From NCBI RefSeq assembly GCF_015330125.1, contig NZ_JADDXR010000002.1, forward strand, positions 2,232,001 through 2,296,000: DNA of 64,000 nt, written 5' to 3'. The stretch is from Zobellia nedashkovskayae (GTDB lineage: Bacteria > Bacteroidota > Bacteroidia > Flavobacteriales > Flavobacteriaceae). The position numbers were made by a program, and so were the translations under genes. Under the pieces are notes generated by a model. It saw only the letters and a list, made by a program, of their open reading frames with translations, made no database searches and was not told the DNA's origin. This document shows, piece after piece, positions 54,584 through 63,279 of this stretch; position 1 is the first letter of the stretch; each line of letters begins with the position of its first letter.

Positions 54584-55240
54584 TTAGTTGATTTTGTATC
54601 CTTCAAACCAACTTCCATTGCCATCTATGCGAACATCAGAGCCAACGGAAAAATTGCGTAAAACTATAAATACTTCTTGACCTTCAGTTAAACGATAAAT
54701 ACCACTTACATTTATCTTTATATCATCCCCATCAACATTCTGTGTATACCTTGCATTCCTGTCTATATTAAATTGTATCCTAAAAAAGGCATCAGTTACG
54801 GCATTTGAGTGTCGAATATAAGCCTGCAGGAAATAATAGCCAGTTTCTTGCACAACATAACGTTTTGTAGAAGTGTTAAAGCCATTTGCAGAGTCAAAAT
54901 CTACAAGATCCCATATATCGGTTTCTATGGTAGTGCCACCATCCAAGTCTTTTACGGCAAAACCGTTACCTCTAACTTTGAAAAATGTGGGGCTAAATTC
55001 TGCATCTTGACCATCAACACCATTCCGACCATCAATACCATCTTGTCCGTCAGTGCCATCTTGCCCATCAACACCATTTTGTCCAGCAATGCCTGGCTCT
55101 CCTTGTTCGCCCTGTATTCCTGCAGGTCCAATAGACCCTGTTGCTCCCATGGGGCCTTCTGGTCCTTCTTTTGTGCATGATGCTAAAACCAACACTAATA
55201 AAAAAATCATGCTTCCGAAATATTTGAACGTAGTTTTCAT
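54584..55240 (-). CDS. Lipoprotein with collagen-like stalk and C1q/TNF-like head
   Basis: 218 aa. Lipobox LASC (Cys22). A collagen-like GXY stalk (about 26-78) runs from GPEGPMGATGSIGPAG through QNGVDGQDGTDGQDG. The C-terminal domain (about 85-218) has TGYYFLQAYIRH, FFRIQFNIDR, GIYRLTEGQEVFIVLRNF and GSWFEGYKI, a strand pattern close to C1q/TNF jelly rolls. It may form a surface-attached trimeric binding protein; ligand unknown. Confidence 0.82.
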   Translation of the reverse strand: MKTTFKYFGSMIFLLVLVLASCTKEGPEGPMGATGSIGPAGIQGEQGEPGIAGQNGVDGQDGTDGQDGIDGRNGVDGQDAEFSPTFFKVRGNGFAVKDLDGGTTIETDIWDLVDFDSANGFNTSTKRYVVQETGYYFLQAYIRHSNAVTDAFFRIQFNIDRNARYTQNVDGDDIKINVSGIYRLTEGQEVFIVLRNFSVGSDVRIDGNGSWFEGYKIN

Positions 55241-55307
55241 AATGCTTGTAATTTATGTATTTAGTATTTTATGTTGTAGACTATACCAAGGTTAACATAC
55301 ACCATAA

Positions 55308-55356: not shown

Positions 55357-57078
55357 TTATTCTGTAAACACGTAGTCTACGTTTACAAAATACTCGTACA
55401 GTAGATTATTTTGATCTGCGTCCCACATTTGAAACCTTATTTGGTCAACAACATGTGGGGTTATAGTCTCGGCAATACTGACGGTGAAATACCCACTACC
55501 GTTTCCTTCTCCCACAGGATGGATGCCCGATGGATGTGCTTTGTAGCCAGGGGTAGGACTTCCGTTAGTAAACGGTCTGCCGAAGATTCTAACTCCACCA
55601 GGCTCATTTGTCTTATAATGGAAATCAAAATTTACCCTTTCTCCTTCCACTAATGTTGAATTCGTACCTGGTTCTAAATTATCTAGTACAACTCTATGGG
55701 CAAGGTATTGATAGTCAACATCTATAAAGAACTCATACAAAAGATTGCTCTGATCGGCATCCCACATTTGAAATCGTATTTGGTCTACATGTTGGGAATT
55801 CTCCTGTATGGTGAAATACCCATTAGAAGAGCCTTCGCCAGTGGCGTGTAAGGGTGACCCATGTGCCGCGTAGCCTGGTGTTGGACTGCCATCGGTCATT
55901 GGTCTACCGAATATTCTAACACCAGCGGCCTCGCTTGTTATATAGTTAAAGGTAAACTCGACCTTCTCTCCCAAAAATAGAGTGGAGGGTGAGTCAGGAC
56001 TGAGAGAGACAAGTTCAACATTCTCTTCTGACTCGCAATATAAATTGAACTCGGCTTTATTAGAGAAAATTTCCTCTGGGCTAATGATTTTTACTTGTTG
56101 CCAGTACCCCTCATAAGATTCTCCGCTTCCACCAAGAGTCCATGATGTAGTTACTTTTTTGGTCCCTGCTTCTTCAAATGTAATAGAGTTTTCCGGAGCA
56201 GTTGCCCCATCGCTTCTTAACCATGTATACGTTATAGTTGTTGGGCCGTCTGCTTCTATCTCGGTTTCAAAATCAAATTTTTTGGAACAAGGTCCGGTAA
56301 AATTATTTTCTCCCACAATAGCGGTAGTTGCAGTGATGGTTACTGTATCTTCTTCACAATGTAAATCAAACTCGGATTTATTGGAGAGAATTTCTTCTGG
56401 GCTAATGATTTTTAGTTGTTGCCAGTAGCCCTCATAAGATTCTCCGCTTCCACCAAGAGTCCATGATGTAGTAAACTTTTTAGTTCCTGCTTCTTCAAAC
56501 GTAATAGTGTTTTCCGGAGCAGTTGCTCCATCGCTTCTTAACCATGTATATGTTATAGTTGTTGGACCATCAACATCTATTTCTGCTTCAAAATCAAATT
56601 TTTTGGAGCAGGGCCCAGTAAAACTATTTTCTCCTACAACAGCGGTAGTAGTGGTGATTGTTACAGCTTCTTCTTCTTCTTCTTCACAGTGTAAATTAAA
56701 CTCGGCTTTATTAGAAAGAATTTCCTCTGGGCTAATGACTTTTAGTTGTTGCCAGTAGCCCTCATAAGATTCTCCGTTTGCACCAAGAGTCCATGATGTA
56801 GTAACCTTTTTAGTTCCTGCTTCTTCAAACGTAATAGAGTTTTCCGGAGCAGTGGCCCCATCGCTTCTTAACCATGTATAGCTTACAGTCATAGGTCCAT
56901 CGGCATCTATTTCTGCTTCAAAATCAATTTTTTTGGAGCAGGGTCCGGTAAAGTCAGAGACCGCTCCAAGCCTCACTGCAGTAACTTTTGAAGGTTCTTC
57001 CGCAGTGTCGTCGTCTGTACATCCTGTCATTGAAAATACAACTGCTAATAAATAGATAATAGATTTTACATTTTTCAT
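55357..57078 (-). CDS. Repetitive surface lipoprotein (three N-terminal plus two C-terminal repeats)
   Basis: 573 aa. Lipobox MTGC (Cys20). Three near-identical repeats of about 100 residues (33-131, 142-241, 248-348) share FTGPCSKKFDFEAEI, TYTWLRSDGATAPEN, FEEAGTKK and GESYEGYWQQ; each has two Cys (for example 47 and 131), probably one disulfide per Ig-like unit. Two different repeats follow (356-458 and 464-573) with GVRIFGRP-x-T-GSPTPGY and VDQIRFQMWDADQ-NLLYE. Short Glu/Thr linkers vary in length. No enzyme motif. A likely multi-domain surface adhesin or binding protein. Confidence 0.8.
   Translation of the reverse strand: MKNVKSIIYLLAVVFSMTGCTDDDTAEEPSKVTAVRLGAVSDFTGPCSKKIDFEAEIDADGPMTVSYTWLRSDGATAPENSITFEEAGTKKVTTSWTLGANGESYEGYWQQLKVISPEEILSNKAEFNLHCEEEEEEAVTITTTTAVVGENSFTGPCSKKFDFEAEIDVDGPTTITYTWLRSDGATAPENTITFEEAGTKKFTTSWTLGGSGESYEGYWQQLKIISPEEILSNKSEFDLHCEEDTVTITATTAIVGENNFTGPCSKKFDFETEIEADGPTTITYTWLRSDGATAPENSITFEEAGTKKVTTSWTLGGSGESYEGYWQQVKIISPEEIFSNKAEFNLYCESEENVELVSLSPDSPSTLFLGEKVEFTFNYITSEAAGVRIFGRPMTDGSPTPGYAAHGSPLHATGEGSSNGYFTIQENSQHVDQIRFQMWDADQSNLLYEFFIDVDYQYLAHRVVLDNLEPGTNSTLVEGERVNFDFHYKTNEPGGVRIFGRPFTNGSPTPGYKAHPSGIHPVGEGNGSGYFTVSIAETITPHVVDQIRFQMWDADQNNLLYEYFVNVDYVFTE
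55360..56013 (-). repeat. Two C-terminal coding repeats of the repetitive lipoprotein
   Basis: 55705-56013 and 55360-55689 code for the two related GVRIFGRP/DQIRFQMWDADQ units. They are more diverged from each other than the N-terminal three. Confidence 0.8.
56035..56982 (-). repeat. Three tandem near-identical coding repeats of about 300 bp
   Basis: 56686-56982, 56356-56655 and 56035-56337. Long blocks such as the one containing CCTCATAAGATTCTCCG recur three times with almost no change, including synonymous sites. This points to recent duplication or gene conversion. Confidence 0.85.
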
Positions 57079-57254: not shown

Positions 57255-57356
57255 TTAAGTGAGCAGCTTAAAAAGAACAAACAGAGATGCCGTAAAGGCT
57301 AGGATCAATACTCTTTTTATGAGTTCTAATTTTTCGTAGGTGTTCATATTTTTCAT
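57255..57356 (-). CDS. 33-aa single-helix membrane peptide
   Basis: ATG at 57354-57356, TAA at 57255-57257. Reads MKNMNTYEKLELIKRVLILA then FTASLFVLFKLLT: a charged start and a C-terminal hydrophobic helix. It lies between the repetitive lipoprotein and the sigma factor. The rest of the 480-bp gap shows nothing else I can name. Confidence 0.45.
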   Translation of the reverse strand: MKNMNTYEKLELIKRVLILAFTASLFVLFKLLT

Positions 57357-57562
57357 TTTTATGGTTCCCCTATTTATGTTCAAAAAATGATAAAGGTTAA
57401 CATGGATGGGGTATTTTACTTATTCACCACATAGGAAGTAGATTACTTCTCTGGTGGCGGATGTTCTGTTTTCTAAATAATCTTTAGTTTTTGAGACGAG
57501 GCAAACAAAAAATGTTAAATTAGATGCCATCACTGTTAACCTTCTCATTACATATACATTAA

Positions 57563-58132
57563 ATGGAAAATATACAGGCAGAAATAACGCTTGAAGATTT
57601 ACGAAAGGGCTCAGATTACTTGCTTAAGCAGGTATATGAATCTAATCGCCTAAAGTTTTTAAACTTTGCTAGGCGCTATAACCTTTCGGAAGAAGAAAAC
57701 ATAGATATATATCAGGATGCTTACGTTATTTTTTATAATAATGTCATGAGCGGAAAGTTAGAGAGCTTATCTAGTAGTATTTCTACATATCTGTTTTCCA
57801 TTGGTAAATATTTAATCTTTGATAAGATGCGGAAGAATAAAAAAGTGGTTTCTGGTGATTATGATTTGTCTAGGGTGGCAGAGGTTGATGACGAAGTGAA
57901 TACTTTTGAAATGGAAAAACAGAGCCTAACTACAGAACAAGAATTATTAAAAAAACACTTTGGCTCTTTGGGTGATAAATGCCAAGAATTACTGACGTTA
58001 TTTTATTACCGAGGTTTTACCATTCAAGAAATAATGGAAGCAAAAAACTACAATAGTGAGAATGTGGTAAAGTCCGCAAAATCGCGCTGTATGAAAACTT
58101 TAAAAGAAAAAATCCAAGCAAATACCTACTAA
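57563..58132 (+). CDS. ECF-type sigma-70 family sigma factor
   Basis: 189 aa. Region 2 (about 30-100): RLKFLNFARRYNLSEEENID, IYQDAYVIFYNNV, and STYLFSIGKYLIFDKMRKNK. Region 4 HTH (about 130-185): LGDKCQELLTLFYYRGFTIQ then EIMEAKNYNSENVVKSAKSR. No region 1 or 3. Its stop overlaps the next gene's ATG by one base (TAATG), so the two are translated together. Confidence 0.94.
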   Translation: MENIQAEITLEDLRKGSDYLLKQVYESNRLKFLNFARRYNLSEEENIDIYQDAYVIFYNNVMSGKLESLSSSISTYLFSIGKYLIFDKMRKNKKVVSGDYDLSRVAEVDDEVNTFEMEKQSLTTEQELLKKHFGSLGDKCQELLTLFYYRGFTIQEIMEAKNYNSENVVKSAKSRCMKTLKEKIQANTY

Positions 58133-58872
58133 TGATGGATAAAGAACATTTATTATATAATTATTTTTCTAACCAATTAACGGTTCAGGAAGAACAGCAG
58201 TTCAATGAATTGATGAAAACCGATATGGACTTTAAGAAGCAATTCGATTTTGAGAATGACCTTAAACAGGTCATCCGTAATAAGGAATCTGATAATTTAA
58301 AAGCCAAACTAATTGGTTACGAAAAAGAGATAAATGATGTTCCTGTTAAAACATTACCACGAACAAATTACCGAAAATGGGCTATGGCAGCATCCGTAGC
58401 TTTATTAATAGGTTTAGGATGGTTAGGTTACAACAATTTCTCGGGCACTGATTACAATGCTCTTTACAATGATAATTTTCAAGAATACCCTAACACGGTC
58501 TATGCTATTACTAGAGGGGCGGATACAGATAGTTCTTTGGAGCGTGAAGCCTATGCGGCCTACGAAACTAATGACAATACAAAAGCAATTCAGCTTTTTA
58601 CGGAGTTAAAAGAAACTTCTGATTCTGAAAATATCAGTTTCTATTTGGCACAGTCGTATTTAAAAAACAATCAATTAGAAGAAGCAATCACTCTTTTTAA
58701 TAAGGTGATAGAAGGTAAAGGAGAGTTTGCACCGCAAGCATTATGGTATGTTTCACTTTCATATTTAAAAGAAAAACAGAAAGATAAAGCTACAAAGTCT
58801 TTAAACCTTTTAATTGCAGATGGCAGGTATAAGAAAACGGATGCTGAAAATCTTTTAGATGAGCTAAAATAA
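58132..58872 (+). CDS. Membrane TPR protein, putative anti-sigma partner
   Basis: 246 aa. A cytoplasmic helical start (LLYNYFSNQLTVQEEQQFNE, resembling the zf-less anti-sigma N-termini of Bacteroidota), one membrane helix (about 83-100, KWAMAASVALLIGLGWLGY) and an exported C-terminal part with TPRs (about 140-240: AYAAYETNDNTKAIQLFTEL, SFYLAQSYLKNNQLEEAITL). Coupling to the sigma gene and topology suggest it holds the sigma factor at the membrane; this is inference. Its stop is 3 bp from the stop of the convergent CHAT gene. Confidence 0.82.
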   Translation: MMDKEHLLYNYFSNQLTVQEEQQFNELMKTDMDFKKQFDFENDLKQVIRNKESDNLKAKLIGYEKEINDVPVKTLPRTNYRKWAMAASVALLIGLGWLGYNNFSGTDYNALYNDNFQEYPNTVYAITRGADTDSSLEREAYAAYETNDNTKAIQLFTELKETSDSENISFYLAQSYLKNNQLEEAITLFNKVIEGKGEFAPQALWYVSLSYLKEKQKDKATKSLNLLIADGRYKKTDAENLLDELK

Positions 58873-58875
58873 GGA

Positions 58876-61644
58876 CTAGCCTTTTAACCTCTTCTTTTTT
58901 GCCAAAAAGTAAAGAGTAGCCAAAATTAGAATACCAGAAATTGCCCAAAGCCAATACGGCATGAATTCTGTATTGTTCCTTAAAGGAGTATTGTCACCAA
59001 TTACAATAAGAGCAGCCCAATAGGCAGGGGCTATAGCACTTTCGCGATATTTTTGGATGTAATCTACCTTAGCTTTTCGCATAGCGGCAGATTTTGTAGC
59101 CCCTTCACTAAGCGCTGAATAAAATGAGGTCATTAGTTCTTTGCTGCTTTTGTCATAGGTAGGCCATAGCGAAGACACTACGCTTTTAGCTCCGGAATGG
59201 AAAAAGCCTCTTGCCAAGCTCATAGCACCTTCACCCTTTTTTAATTCTCCAATAGAGGTATTACAGGCACTTAAAACAACCATTTCTGCTTGGTTTTTAG
59301 TGGCATAAATTTCATTTAGAAATAGTTTATCATCACTAAAAGCAATCCAAGGATCTTCATTTTCTCCTATATCTGCATGGGTAGATAGGTGTACAATGCT
59401 ATAATCTTTAAAATTAGCTGTAAAAGCAGCTTTTGTTGCTTCACCTTTTAATGCAATGTTTCCTGGGAAAATCTTTTGAATCTCTTCTATTTCGGCACCG
59501 CTAAAGATTAGACTGGGTAGCCCCAAGCTTGCAAATTGAATAGGAGCTACTGCGTAAAGTTCTTTTTTGGGAGTTCCTAGCATATGTGATTTGGCATCCA
59601 AATAGGACATAGAGTACGCATATCTAATTTCTGTATCTTCAATAAAGTACTTGGGTGGTTTGTTCTCAATAACAAAAGCCTCAAAAGGAATCTGTTGTAA
59701 AATGTAATCAGGTATGATGGTGAGTTTTTTACCTTTTAGGCCACTGTAAACCTGGTTCGGTACCAGTTGTTCAAAAACATTTAAGGAAAGTTGGTTATAC
59801 GCAGAAATCTCATCACGATTCAACCTAAGGTTTGTAAGACTCTCGTATAATTTTATGATGTCTTGGTTTAGATCGGGGGCATTTTGAAATTTAAAAAACT
59901 GGGTATGCTTTTCCGTAGTCAAAAGTCCATAGCCTTGTTGGTCGTTTAGAATGTATTGTAATACTACTTCATCATCTGAGATATAATTTTTTCTAAAATC
60001 CTTATAGGTCAGAAGCTCTGCTTTACTTTTTAGTTTTGCATATTCCGGTGATATGACACTTAACGAATCTGTAAAATCATTATAAGCTTTCTTGGCGTTA
60101 TAAATCTTATTTTTAAATATCTTAAGTTCTGTTTTTTCTAAATCTGGATTGGTCTGTAATTCGTTTTCAGATAGAAATATGGCCTGTTTAAGATTAAATT
60201 CGCGTTGTGCAATAGAGTCTGGAAGTTTAGTGATAATTTTTGCTTGCTCATTTGATATGTCTTCAAGAAGAAGTAAGGCTTTGTTACGCTCCATAAAGTA
60301 AAAAGCCTCTTCTGGTTTGGTAAGTAAAAAACAAGCCTCTACTGCTTTTGTATATAACGAAGCTCCTTTTTCTCTCCAAAAAAGTTTTGATTGGTATTCA
60401 GTACTTTCTGAGCGAATAACATCAACTAGCTGATCCGCCAGTCTAAATGTACTTAATGCCTGATTTAAATAGTCTTTGTTGTTTTCGAATTCATAAAACT
60501 TCAACCAACCGTTTGCTTTGGCTATAATATGACTTAGAAGGAATAATTTTTGAGTTGAAAGTTCCAGAGTTTTAATACTGGGAAGTGCATCAATTTCTAA
60601 ATCTTCTCTAGTATCGATTTTTAAAAAAATTGCTTTTTGATAATTTTTTAACGCTTTATTGAAATTATTTTGGTGTAGATAGAGATCTCCCAAGTTTTCA
60701 TATGGTAAGGAATAGTCTTCGGCAATAGCTATCGACTTGTTTAAATGCCTTAAAGCTTTTTCAGTGTTTTTTAATTTAAAGTAAGAATAACCAATACTGT
60801 TGTTAATATTTGCTATATCCTTTAGTTGTAAACTTGCAGAGTCTTTAAGTACTTCTTGGTGTTTGGTGATTGCTAGTTCATAATTGCCAGTTTCCAGAAG
60901 TCTATTTCCTTCTAAATGGTCTATGCGTCTTTTAAACTGCTCGTGGGGTTCATTGTGAAGTTTAATAAGAGAGTCTGCTTTATTTGAATTATACTGTATC
61001 TCATCTGAAAATTCGCTCAGTCCCATTTCGGCATACGTCTCCGCCATCATTATTCTGGCATCTATTATTCTCCTGGCATCTATTGTTTCAAAGGAAACAC
61101 CATCGTAAAGAGAAATCATCTCGGCCAAACGATCCAAAGCTTTATAGAAATCACCTGTTGTTAAATAAAGATAACCAAGCTCAAGCCTTGCATTTTGTAT
61201 CCATTCAACATCAGTACCGTTATCATTTATATAATTGTAGGTTTCTATGGCGTTGTATATTTCGCCTTTCAAATAGTAAAAAACACCTAGGTTGTAGTAG
61301 GTATTGTCTAAAGAACCTTTTTCCAAATCTTTTAAACCTGTCTTTATTTCTAGAGCCTTCTTTGTGTAATTGATTGCATTTATAATATCACCCTTTTTAC
61401 CATCATTCCACCATTGTTCATGGTACCATTTATTGCCTACATCGTGATAACAATTTGCTAGTTCTAAAGGAGACATTGTTTCTGAGTTAACAGAAAAAAA
61501 TGAATCGATTTTTTTTTGAATGACTTCCTTACTTTCATCGGCGTTAATGATTTTAACCAACGTGTTCTGTTGAGCCATACAGATATAACTGAAAAAGAAA
61601 ACTATAACACAGTTAAATTTAAGGTTTAGCATATAAGAAATCAT
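58876..61644 (-). CDS. Exported TPR-CHAT protease with C-terminal membrane anchor
   Basis: 922 aa. N-terminal signal peptide (CVIVFFFSYICMAQ; MLNLKFNC at 61632 is an alternative start). TPRs fill about 40-420 (ARLELGYLYLTTGDFYKALD, SIGYSYFKLKNTEKALRHLN, LGDLYLHQNNFNKALKNYQK). The CHAT domain (about 600-885) has the caspase-like dyad His756 in VHLSTHAD and Cys794 in VLSACNTS, plus GEGAMSLARGFFHSGAKSVV and SLWPTYD. A membrane helix (about 895-915) and basic tail (AKKKRLKG) end the protein. The dyad is intact, so it is probably an active cysteine protease facing the periplasm. Substrate unknown. Confidence 0.9.
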   Translation of the reverse strand: MISYMLNLKFNCVIVFFFSYICMAQQNTLVKIINADESKEVIQKKIDSFFSVNSETMSPLELANCYHDVGNKWYHEQWWNDGKKGDIINAINYTKKALEIKTGLKDLEKGSLDNTYYNLGVFYYLKGEIYNAIETYNYINDNGTDVEWIQNARLELGYLYLTTGDFYKALDRLAEMISLYDGVSFETIDARRIIDARIMMAETYAEMGLSEFSDEIQYNSNKADSLIKLHNEPHEQFKRRIDHLEGNRLLETGNYELAITKHQEVLKDSASLQLKDIANINNSIGYSYFKLKNTEKALRHLNKSIAIAEDYSLPYENLGDLYLHQNNFNKALKNYQKAIFLKIDTREDLEIDALPSIKTLELSTQKLFLLSHIIAKANGWLKFYEFENNKDYLNQALSTFRLADQLVDVIRSESTEYQSKLFWREKGASLYTKAVEACFLLTKPEEAFYFMERNKALLLLEDISNEQAKIITKLPDSIAQREFNLKQAIFLSENELQTNPDLEKTELKIFKNKIYNAKKAYNDFTDSLSVISPEYAKLKSKAELLTYKDFRKNYISDDEVVLQYILNDQQGYGLLTTEKHTQFFKFQNAPDLNQDIIKLYESLTNLRLNRDEISAYNQLSLNVFEQLVPNQVYSGLKGKKLTIIPDYILQQIPFEAFVIENKPPKYFIEDTEIRYAYSMSYLDAKSHMLGTPKKELYAVAPIQFASLGLPSLIFSGAEIEEIQKIFPGNIALKGEATKAAFTANFKDYSIVHLSTHADIGENEDPWIAFSDDKLFLNEIYATKNQAEMVVLSACNTSIGELKKGEGAMSLARGFFHSGAKSVVSSLWPTYDKSSKELMTSFYSALSEGATKSAAMRKAKVDYIQKYRESAIAPAYWAALIVIGDNTPLRNNTEFMPYWLWAISGILILATLYFLAKKKRLKG

Positions 61645-61763
61645 TCGAGTTAAAACTATGCAGGTTTTGAAAAATAGATTATTAGGACGTCAATAATAAT
61701 CTAAATATATAAAGAATTTTATGGTGAAATACTTATTTGTAAAAGTGGGAGTAAGCAGAAATG

Positions 61764-61797
61764 TAAAAGAGCCCATGTTACACATGGGCTCTTTTTT
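61764..61797 (-). terminator. Strong rho-independent terminator after the S8 protease gene
   Basis: A 14-bp stem, AAAAGAGCCCATGT with ACATGGGCTCTTTT, with a 3-nt loop. It separates the S8 gene from the CHAT gene on the same strand, so they are probably distinct transcripts. Confidence 0.9.
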
Positions 61798-61816
61798 GTT
61801 TTATGTTTATGATTCG

Positions 61817-63208
61817 TTAGTTCGTAGCTCTAGGAATCACCCTTCTCTCATCAATCTTACCATCAAGCTCAGGTGCTTCTATGGCTAAGTTGAAAATTAG
61901 ATTCTTTAATTCTTCAGCAGGTACTCTACCTACCTGATTAATTACTGATCCCGCAATTCCCGACATGGCTGCTGTAGCATATGAGGTACCCTGAAGGGTA
62001 ACTCTATTTTTTAAAGAGGGATCGGAATTATCCAAAATAATTCTGTAATCATTAAACGCTAAAGCGATATCTATACTCCCTTTACTGCCGTAGTTAGAAA
62101 GCGGATGCAATTTAATAGGTAACGAACCTGGATTTATTGTGTCGTATTCATAACCGCCTACGGTAAGTATGTTGGTCTCCCTAAATGATGAAATAAAGTC
62201 TCCATTTGGTCCTTGATCAACATCTTTATTGTCATTACCTCCGGAAGTAATAACTAATGCGCCAGCCCTGTTAAGGTCCTCTATAGTCTGTGCAAAGATA
62301 TTTTTTTGGTCACCTGGTGCAGGTTCTTCAAATATTTCACGGGGCATTTCCCCTCCGAAACTTGCATTGACAATACTGATGTTAGCACCGTTTTGGTTCA
62401 GTTGTTTAATATAAGATAGTGCACATAGAACATTCCAATAGGAACCTTTTCCGGCATCATCAAATACTTTTAATGGTAAAATTGAATAATTGAGGTTTTT
62501 GCTATCAAGTTCATCGGTAATAATTTTGGTTATGTATGTACCATGTCCATTGCCGTCTGCAAAATATCGGTTGTTAGGTTCTTGAGTAAAGTTCCAACCA
62601 GATGTAGTTGGGTAACAACTTCCAAATCTGCCACTTGGGAAAAGGAATTCTTTAGGTTCATTTGTAAATAGATACCTGTAAAAATCAAGCCCAGTATCTA
62701 TAACAGCAATATTTATTTTAGAATTACCTGCATTTGCTATGAGCGCTTCCTCTTCCCCATCAACACCTTGCCCTTGAACGGTATAAGGACCAACTGGTGA
62801 AAGCTCTATGTCAAAAGACCTTTCTCCGCGTGTTGTGCCTCTTGGGCTTGTTCTTGAAAGGCGCTCTACCACACCCTCAATTTCTACTTCACTAATGTTC
62901 GGGTCAAAAATCCATAACTCAATATTAGTGTCTCCACAGTCACATTGTTTAAATTCAATAATGGGATATTTATCTCTAATAGCCTCGCGTTCTTCAGGTG
63001 TAACTTGTGGTTGATATTTTACGATTACATTATTCGGCGAGATAAAAATTTTTTTTTCTTCACTGCTAATACCTTCATCTACGTTTATGTCTTGATATGT
63101 GATATTGGAGTTAGGCTCGTCATCATCGGGAACTTGTCCATAGGGTATTTTTGTACAAGAAGACAGTATAATGGTCATTAATAGCAGAAATGTAATTTTC
63201 GTTTTCAT
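61817..63208 (-). CDS. S8-family subtilisin-like protease lipoprotein
   Basis: 463 aa. Lipobox LSSC (Cys18). An inhibitor-like propeptide (about 58-125: NNVIVKYQPQVTPEEREAIR, then CDCGDTNIELWIFD) precedes the catalytic domain: Asp171 in IAVIDTGLD, His222 in DGNGHGTYI, oxyanion Asn325 in ITSGGNDN and Ser409 in LQGTSYATAAMSG. The triad is complete. It is probably anchored to a membrane and acts outside the cytoplasm. It shares the neighbourhood with the CHAT protease and sigma pair. Confidence 0.95.
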   Translation of the reverse strand: MKTKITFLLLMTIILSSCTKIPYGQVPDDDEPNSNITYQDINVDEGISSEEKKIFISPNNVIVKYQPQVTPEEREAIRDKYPIIEFKQCDCGDTNIELWIFDPNISEVEIEGVVERLSRTSPRGTTRGERSFDIELSPVGPYTVQGQGVDGEEEALIANAGNSKINIAVIDTGLDFYRYLFTNEPKEFLFPSGRFGSCYPTTSGWNFTQEPNNRYFADGNGHGTYITKIITDELDSKNLNYSILPLKVFDDAGKGSYWNVLCALSYIKQLNQNGANISIVNASFGGEMPREIFEEPAPGDQKNIFAQTIEDLNRAGALVITSGGNDNKDVDQGPNGDFISSFRETNILTVGGYEYDTINPGSLPIKLHPLSNYGSKGSIDIALAFNDYRIILDNSDPSLKNRVTLQGTSYATAAMSGIAGSVINQVGRVPAEELKNLIFNLAIEAPELDGKIDERRVIPRATN

Positions 63209-63279
63209 AGTTGAGGGTATTAAGGTTGATTATTGTTTTAATTTAATGTTCTAGCTTGGGTAAAGGTTAACAGATAATA

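Follow-up and report, generated by a model that had tools for sequence, protein, structure and literature searches.

A conserved locus for an ECF sigma factor, a putative membrane anti-sigma factor and a TPR-CHAT protease in Zobellia nedashkovskayae and its relatives

Can an exported protease control a sigma factor across the inner membrane in a bacterium where the locus carries no CRISPR elements? The question is raised by positions 57,563 to 63,208 of a 64,000-nucleotide stretch of the Zobellia nedashkovskayae genome (Bacteroidota; Flavobacteriaceae; assembly GCF_015330125.1, contig NZ_JADDXR010000002.1, positions 2,232,001 to 2,296,000, forward strand), this whole stretch being referred to below as the window. 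A sequence-only reading of the window had proposed that four genes here, for an extracytoplasmic function (ECF) sigma factor, a membrane protein with tetratricopeptide repeats (TPRs), a TPR-CHAT protease and an S8 (subtilase) lipoprotein, form one proteolytic signalling system. Three of these genes form the core of the locus, those for the ECF sigma factor, for the membrane protein, read here as an anti-sigma factor with its TPRs exported, and for the TPR-CHAT protease, which is anchored in the membrane. We think the chances somewhat better than even that they make up an envelope pathway in which the CHAT protein would cut the membrane anti-sigma factor and so free the sigma factor. That reading draws on gene identity, linkage and co-inheritance, similarity to anti-sigma-type proteins, conservation of the catalytic dyad and of a linker motif, and upstream boxes shared with neighbouring genes.

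The genes and their linkage

All four open reading frames (ORFs) were found at the coordinates first given, and the description of each product by the sequence-only reading was borne out. The sigma gene (57563..58132, + strand) encodes a protein of 189 aa that matches TIGR02937 over its cut-off (E 2.7e-15) and the Pfam families Sigma70_r2 (over cut-off) and Sigma70_r4 (below), and its profile matches ECF sigma factors in the PDB. Its stop codon shares one base with the ATG of the TPR gene (58132..58872, + strand, 246 aa), the product of which has Pfam TPR-repeat matches within residues 133-194 and a hydrophobic segment centred at residue 91. Tail to tail with this, the two stop codons lying 3 bp apart, is the CHAT gene (58876..61644, − strand, 922 aa), whose product consists of an N-terminal signal-like segment, a TPR superhelix, a CHAT domain (PF12770, E 2.3e-51, best stretch residues 630-884, 58993..59757, − strand) and a C-terminal transmembrane (TM) segment, with hydrophobic segments near residues 16 and 907. 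The His/Cys dyad, His756/Cys794 in the window (codons 59377-59379 and 59263-59265, − strand), is kept in 116 of 117 distinct CHAT proteins, a degree of conservation that points to catalysis; the C-terminal hydrophobic segment is present in 113 of 116 homologues (window included) and an N-terminal hydrophobic stretch in 96. The CHAT protein is predicted to lie on the outer face of the membrane, as are the TPRs of the putative anti-sigma factor. It is the single CHAT match in the genome (4.94 Mb), the closest named relative (88%) being that of Zobellia uliginosa. A single-sequence PDB search returned TPR and other repeat proteins and no CHAT-domain chain, and a CHAT-domain profile was required to reach CHAT chains. 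The S8 gene (61817..63208, − strand, 463 aa) encodes a protein with a visible lipobox and a PF00082 match (E 1.9e-16), and its triad (D171/H222/S409) is intact in all 24 aligned rows, window included.

PADLOC matched none of the sigma, TPR and CHAT proteins and gave for S8 only a generic subtilase model (E 3.4e-8), and a search of 52-64 kb against Rfam at gathering thresholds found no match. The S8 and CHAT genes are separated by 172 bp containing a terminator-like stem of 14 pairs (61765..61795, no strand assigned), although such sites are about as common in shuffled sequence (5 found, 4.2 in shuffles). Because of this gap, the stem and a box of its own upstream of S8 (see below), the four genes probably do not form a single block.

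Linkage was surveyed in 199 genomes of the family and 345 of the phylum. Relatives of the CHAT protein (E <= 1e-20) were found in 83 of the family genomes, of the TPR protein (E <= 1e-5) in 90, many of them weak, and of S8 (E <= 1e-10) in 19. We retrieved 120 neighbourhoods by CHAT similarity, mostly of about 19 kb, and then called their ORFs (the fetched loci); nearby matches were merged, six weak CHAT matches were not taken into the set and CHAT ORFs shorter than 700 aa were excluded from the linkage and dyad counts. One further candidate, L087_13, was rejected as a CHAT protease, as it has neither dyad nor C-terminal TM segment, and was left out of the linkage count. A sigma/TPR pair lies in the same locus as 108 of 116 CHAT genes (>=700 aa, window included), and four of the eight genes without a pair are on short contigs or at contig ends. 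The loci show five layouts. The first is that of the window, with sigma and TPR followed by CHAT and S8 on the opposite strand, and the second is the same with a lipoprotein of about 217 aa replacing S8. In the third and fourth the sigma/TPR pair is divergent, from lipoprotein-CHAT or from a gene row ending 330-650-CHAT respectively, and in the fifth sigma, TPR and CHAT follow one another on one strand and CHAT is near 1080 aa. The sigma, TPR and CHAT genes are constant, whereas the accessory genes and the gene order vary. Where the choice of paralogue is clear, the nearest TPR and the nearest CHAT concur in 476 of 508 cases, compared with a mean of 245 and a maximum of 354 in 100 permutations; it should be noted that filtering raised the agreement while shrinking the sample (from 1396/2061 to 476/508), and that with full-length CHAT proteins and no filter it is 1888/3037. 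The linkage of the three genes is far above chance. In the phylum a CHAT match is listed no more than 11 kb away for at least 62 of the 106 strongest TPR rows; the true figure may be higher, since scoring was confined to two CHAT candidates in each genome. A sigma gene is followed by a membrane protein gene in 38 of the 80 named loci that match best, including loci of Saprospiraceae, Runella, Fulvivirga and Bacteroidales and one Aliifodinibius locus; two of the 38 (L163 and L184) are without a TPR-profile match. The neighbourhood survey that the sequence-only reading had itself proposed showed sigma/TPR/CHAT linkage to be conserved in relatives, and its four-gene system stands for these three genes; a place for S8 in the core is not supported.

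Some further features of these loci may be recorded here. Two genomes (G195 and G179) have four sigma/TPR/CHAT systems each in the fetched set. In an alignment of 26 sigma factors of the window kind, the cysteines C140 and C176 do not vary. A protein of about 650 aa, possibly a sensor or surface partner, adjoins CHAT in 24 of 24 loci (the L103 member, L103:10974-12926, − strand, carries PKD, DUF7619 and DUF7849). A gene for a retropepsin-like aspartic protease (L103:7944-8387, − strand; Pfam was run on this member only) has relatives in 21 other loci and directly adjoins CHAT in 21 cases; as it lies near sucAB-like genes this may be a chance neighbourhood.

The TPR protein and its linker

Sigma and TPR genes overlap in 53 of the 109 pairs in the fetched loci and are separated by 0-20 nt in another 48, and 102 of the 109 paired TPR proteins have the hydrophobic segment at the threshold used. 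The predicted structure has four N-terminal helices (about residues 4-68, predicted to be cytoplasmic), a low-confidence TM helix (about 83-101), a linker and a confident TPR domain (about 135-246). The VIA-align fold list for this model covers residues 131-246, in the TPR half. Pfam gives the N-terminal domain no name (DUF3379 is matched by 4 of the 26 members), a region-limited search of proteins and a PDB search also left it unnamed, and a single-sequence PDB search with the protein gave nothing useful. The informative result came from the window genome itself, in which the TPR profile has nine matches, three of them confined to the N-terminal half. The genes for all three sit directly 3′ of genes with sigma regions (the neighbour in L262, as called, is an ORF of 101 aa that has region 4 alone); one of the three proteins is an RskA_C protein that also matches the NCBI anti-sigma model below cut-off, one is a FecR protein and one has no family. 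Because its N-terminal half matches three proteins encoded beside sigma genes we read the TPR protein as an anti-sigma factor, which would bind and inhibit its sigma factor. In the fetched loci a profile of the anti-sigma domain found 150 TPR proteins and not one CHAT protein.

Across 65 close sequences no 12-mer anywhere in the TPR protein is better conserved than EYPNTVYAITRG (codons 118-129; 58483..58518, + strand), which lies between the TM segment and the TPRs in the linker peptide EYPNTVYAITRGADT and is a candidate periplasmic cleavage or recognition motif. Model confidence (mean predicted local distance difference test score, pLDDT) is 88 for residues 111-120 and 53 for residues 121-130. 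Of 92 rows outside the class with long CHAT proteins, 79 have Arg and 7 have Lys at position 128 (codon 58513-58515, + strand); within that class the position is a gap in 14 of 17 rows, Arg in two and Asp in one, the linkers there mostly reading DPGLPT, then one residue, then M. CHAT position 718 holds an acidic residue in 89 of 95 proteins outside the long-CHAT class versus 3 of 21 within it. This co-variation of residue 718 with Arg128 is compatible with a changed specificity but may be a single clade difference. The position of CHAT Asp831 is acidic in 94 of 95 and 21 of 21 proteins of the two classes, and, by comparison with the separase motif, this residue might correspond to the one in separase that binds a P1 Arg. 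Specificity of the window CHAT protein for Arg is a guess from the conserved Arg in the linker.

A shared candidate promoter motif and its predicted targets

Which genes the sigma factor would serve is suggested by the sequence TGTTAACCTT, present in four copies in the window when 0.27 would be expected (none of 100 shuffles reaches four), all of them between 55.2 and 63.3 kb. One (57534..57543, + strand) starts 29 nt before the sigma ATG, with CATTAA 15 nt after TGTTAACC; the others, all on the − strand, are upstream of S8 (63263..63272, starting 64 nt from its ATG), of a small membrane ORF and a gene for a PKD-like lipoprotein (57393..57402), and of a gene for a collagen-like lipoprotein (55288..55297). 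Genome-wide TGTTAACCTT alone is not enriched (18 matches versus 26 in the reversed control), and a fifth copy just outside the window, before an OmpA-family gene, lacks the second half of the motif. The bipartite form TGTTAACC-N15/16-CATWAA has seven sites in the whole genome versus one in the reversed control, namely the four in the window and three before genes for exported proteins: a collagen-like lipoprotein, a 186-aa outer-membrane-barrel-like protein and a 115-aa lipoprotein, relatives of which are encoded within two genes of sigma in L063, L064, L067 and L068.

In the fetched loci TGTTAA?CC occurs within 200 nt upstream of 49 of 109 sigma genes, 5 of 109 TPR genes and 2 of 136 CHAT-profile ORFs, and upstream of 35 of 269 genes for lipoproteins, 33 of 447 for other signal-peptide proteins and 9 of 706 for cytosolic proteins. 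The bipartite form is upstream of 8 of 109 sigma genes; these eight loci hold 34 sites (0.1 expected from shuffles), 31 of them upstream of genes, although eight of the 34 are the sigma sites by which the loci were chosen. A slightly looser bipartite form is directly upstream of none of the 136 CHAT-profile ORFs. The sigma factor would thus probably activate its own gene and those for surface proteins, S8 included in the window. As bipartite sites stand upstream of sigma, S8 and surface lipoprotein genes and directly upstream of no CHAT-profile ORF, S8 looks like an output, and CHAT, mostly outside the regulon, looks like an input.

Besides S8, three genes of the window are probable targets, all on the − strand. 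Between sigma and the PKD-like lipoprotein gene is an unannotated ORF of 30 aa (57255..57347; 33 aa if begun at 57356) with one hydrophobic stretch, MNTYEKLELIKRVLILAF..., and similar ORFs in L032, L033, L034, L035 and L080 (tblastn E 3e-7 to 0.08) each have a TGTTAACC box 52-55 nt upstream. The PKD-like repeat lipoprotein gene itself (55357..57078; PKD_4 just below cut-off) has the box at 57393, 324 nt upstream, and the collagen-like lipoprotein gene (54584..55240; PF01391 E 5.3e-10, C1q below cut-off) the one at 55288. The bipartite motif is carried by 14 of 25 ORFs of the collagen-like family in the fetched loci. Tandem units of 18 bp lie inside the window member at 55003-55093. In L033, L032 and L069 several collagen-like lipoprotein genes stand near sigma, each with its own TGTTAACC box, and such a cluster is possibly a surface-protein array under one sigma factor.

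S8 is better read as a probable sigma target than as a core part, because it has fewer relatives in the family than CHAT (19/199 versus 83/199 genomes, at different thresholds) and a sigma-type box. Its rows are within 5 kb of a CHAT row in 23 of 25 cases. Short lipoproteins occupy its place immediately upstream of CHAT in L048, L050, L052, L053 and L060, and three of these weakly match the N-terminal part of S8 (L052, 3.3e-5; L060, 0.0021; L048, 0.0063), as if the protease part had been lost.

Proposed mechanism, alternatives and known systems

In the pathway that we favour the cytoplasmic domain of the TPR anti-sigma factor would keep the sigma factor at the inner membrane. On the periplasmic side the exported TPR-CHAT protein, anchored by its C-terminal TM segment, would face the TPRs of the anti-sigma factor. 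A signal, for which the TPR superhelix of the CHAT protein is the probable reader, would lead the separase-like CHAT domain to cut the anti-sigma linker at or near Arg128/Gly129, an M50 site-2 protease would remove the remaining stub, and the freed sigma factor would transcribe its own operon, S8, the small membrane protein and the surface lipoproteins from TGTTAACC-N15/16-CATWAA promoters. Here we infer the topology, binding, cleavage and its site, the signal, recognition of the boxes and the order of the steps. The genome has one PF02163 (M50) match over cut-off, weak evidence because the family is matched in all 14 control genomes too.

Several results weigh against this pathway. When all 109 TPR proteins of the wider set are compared, conservation is highest at about 202-213, in the TPRs and not in the linker. 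The one class without the Arg motif keeps the CHAT dyad, and if that class is a single clade the co-variation amounts to few events. Distances between sigma factors track the N-terminal half of the TPR protein no better than the TPR half (0.322 versus 0.413), the N-terminal half being the shorter. In 42 of the 80 named loci that match best the pair was not scored as present; 6 of the 42 have a sigma match and some lie on short contigs. Allowing one mismatch, TGTTAACCTT is not enriched in the window (6 found, 8.9 expected), and the bipartite motif is upstream of only 4 of 25 S8-profile ORFs among relatives. For a −35 element the sigma box lies close to the start codon, and the mRNA would have almost no leader, a type that makes up 5.5% of mapped mRNAs in a flavobacterium according to passages of PMC9723704. 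The CHAT gene may also belong in part to the regulon: transcripts from S8 could read through into CHAT past the terminator-like stem in the window, and TGTTAA?CC is found upstream of CHAT, or of a gene just before it, in 14 of 107 systems.

The co-inheritance of sigma, TPR and CHAT would be expected also if the CHAT protein were a sensor or co-inhibitor that binds the anti-sigma TPRs and controls release by conformation or by dissociation of the complex, any cleavage acting on other substrates. We give this perhaps one chance in five or a little more. The CHAT protein would then be a split form of a receptor like DdvA, which is titled a transmembrane anti-sigma factor and whose solved chain is a 991-aa protein named 'CHAT domain-containing protein' in the PDB, so that CHAT can be part of an anti-sigma factor itself; the linker motif could serve as a docking site. 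Conservation of the dyad points instead to catalysis, and part of the motif is in a low-confidence, probably exposed stretch. It is rather unlikely that CHAT is an effector, a periplasmic protease made or switched on in response, with exported proteins or the producing cell as its targets. A TPR-CHAT protease activates a gasdermin elsewhere (as described in part of PMC9729208), S8 and in one layout the retropepsin-like gene adjoin CHAT, and the 14 systems just mentioned would fit. Unlike the neighbouring secreted genes, no CHAT-profile ORF has the bipartite motif directly upstream, and it is the accessory genes that change with layout while sigma, TPR and CHAT stay together. That S8 is the activator, cutting CHAT or the anti-sigma factor in a two-protease cascade, is very improbable: its closeness to CHAT, its intact triad and the S8-like N termini of short lipoproteins in three loci would suit such a role, but its distribution is much narrower than that of CHAT (thresholds differing) and its box in the window fits a target or feedback role.

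The parallel with type III-E CRISPR systems drawn by the sequence-only reading proved apt. PMC10028731 and PMC9729208 report that the TPR-CHAT protein Csx29 cuts Csx30, an inhibitor of an ECF sigma factor, and Csx29 heads the list of structural matches for the window CHAT protein. Both systems have a TPR-CHAT protease and an ECF-type sigma factor, together with a sigma inhibitor that is putative in the window. The type III-E system is bound up with Cas7-11 and crRNA, and it is RNA that activates it, whereas the window system is without CRISPR elements, as had been noted: there is no CRISPR-like array in 44-64 kb and no RAMP match (PF03787, E <= 0.001) in the genome, and filing the locus as type III-E was rejected on these grounds. 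The window CHAT and anti-sigma proteins also differ in having membrane segments and predicted exported domains; Csx29 is not known to have a membrane anchor. Csx30 is absent from the best 60 of 225 PDB sequences for the TPR profile.

The second precedent was missing from the earlier reading, as were the two motifs, one proposed for cleavage and one for the promoter, and the surface lipoproteins as targets. It comes from Myxococcus xanthus, where DdvA is the anti-sigma factor of DdvS (PMC4374960) and DdvS controls an antiphage island (PMC12288465), both according to parts of these papers. There a single chain is apparently both anti-sigma factor and TPR-CHAT protein, whereas the window has two separate proteins, and its CHAT protein has its own signal-like segment and C-terminal TM segment. 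A literature search, which covered few subscription papers, found neither a paper on the DdvA structure nor a description of a sigma/anti-sigma/CHAT envelope system; papers joining a CHAT domain with an anti-sigma factor, or with a sigma factor and a protease, are by their abstracts all on type III-E. RseA/DegS/RseP and RsiW are comparable in that they too involve a membrane anti-sigma factor, and an M50 protease is encoded in the window genome. The enzyme proposed here for the first cut is a cysteine protease of the separase/caspase fold, whereas DegS belongs to the serine proteases. A comparison with DegS, RseA and RsiW is drawn in part of PMC10028731. Eukaryotic separase and gingipain R differ from the window CHAT protein in substrates and biology. 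We regard the locus as an envelope version, widespread and free of CRISPR, of a logic that is already known, with binding and cleavage as proposed steps.

A wider and more tentative proposal, which we would put at about one chance in three, is that the site-1 proteases of the envelope include one more class, the separase-fold CHAT enzymes, which across Bacteroidota would cut membrane anti-sigma factors after a conserved basic residue, and that the type III-E module and DdvA are offshoots of an older CRISPR-free unit. If the pathway favoured here is right, a caspase/separase-type protease would join the short list of proteases making the first cut that frees a sigma factor, and there would be a hint at the origin of the Craspase output module. 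Proteins named 'CHAT domain-containing protein' and 'tetratricopeptide repeat protein' would gain a function, and the type III-E logic would have an envelope setting, with testable cleavage and promoter motifs, in a system kept in many Bacteroidota.

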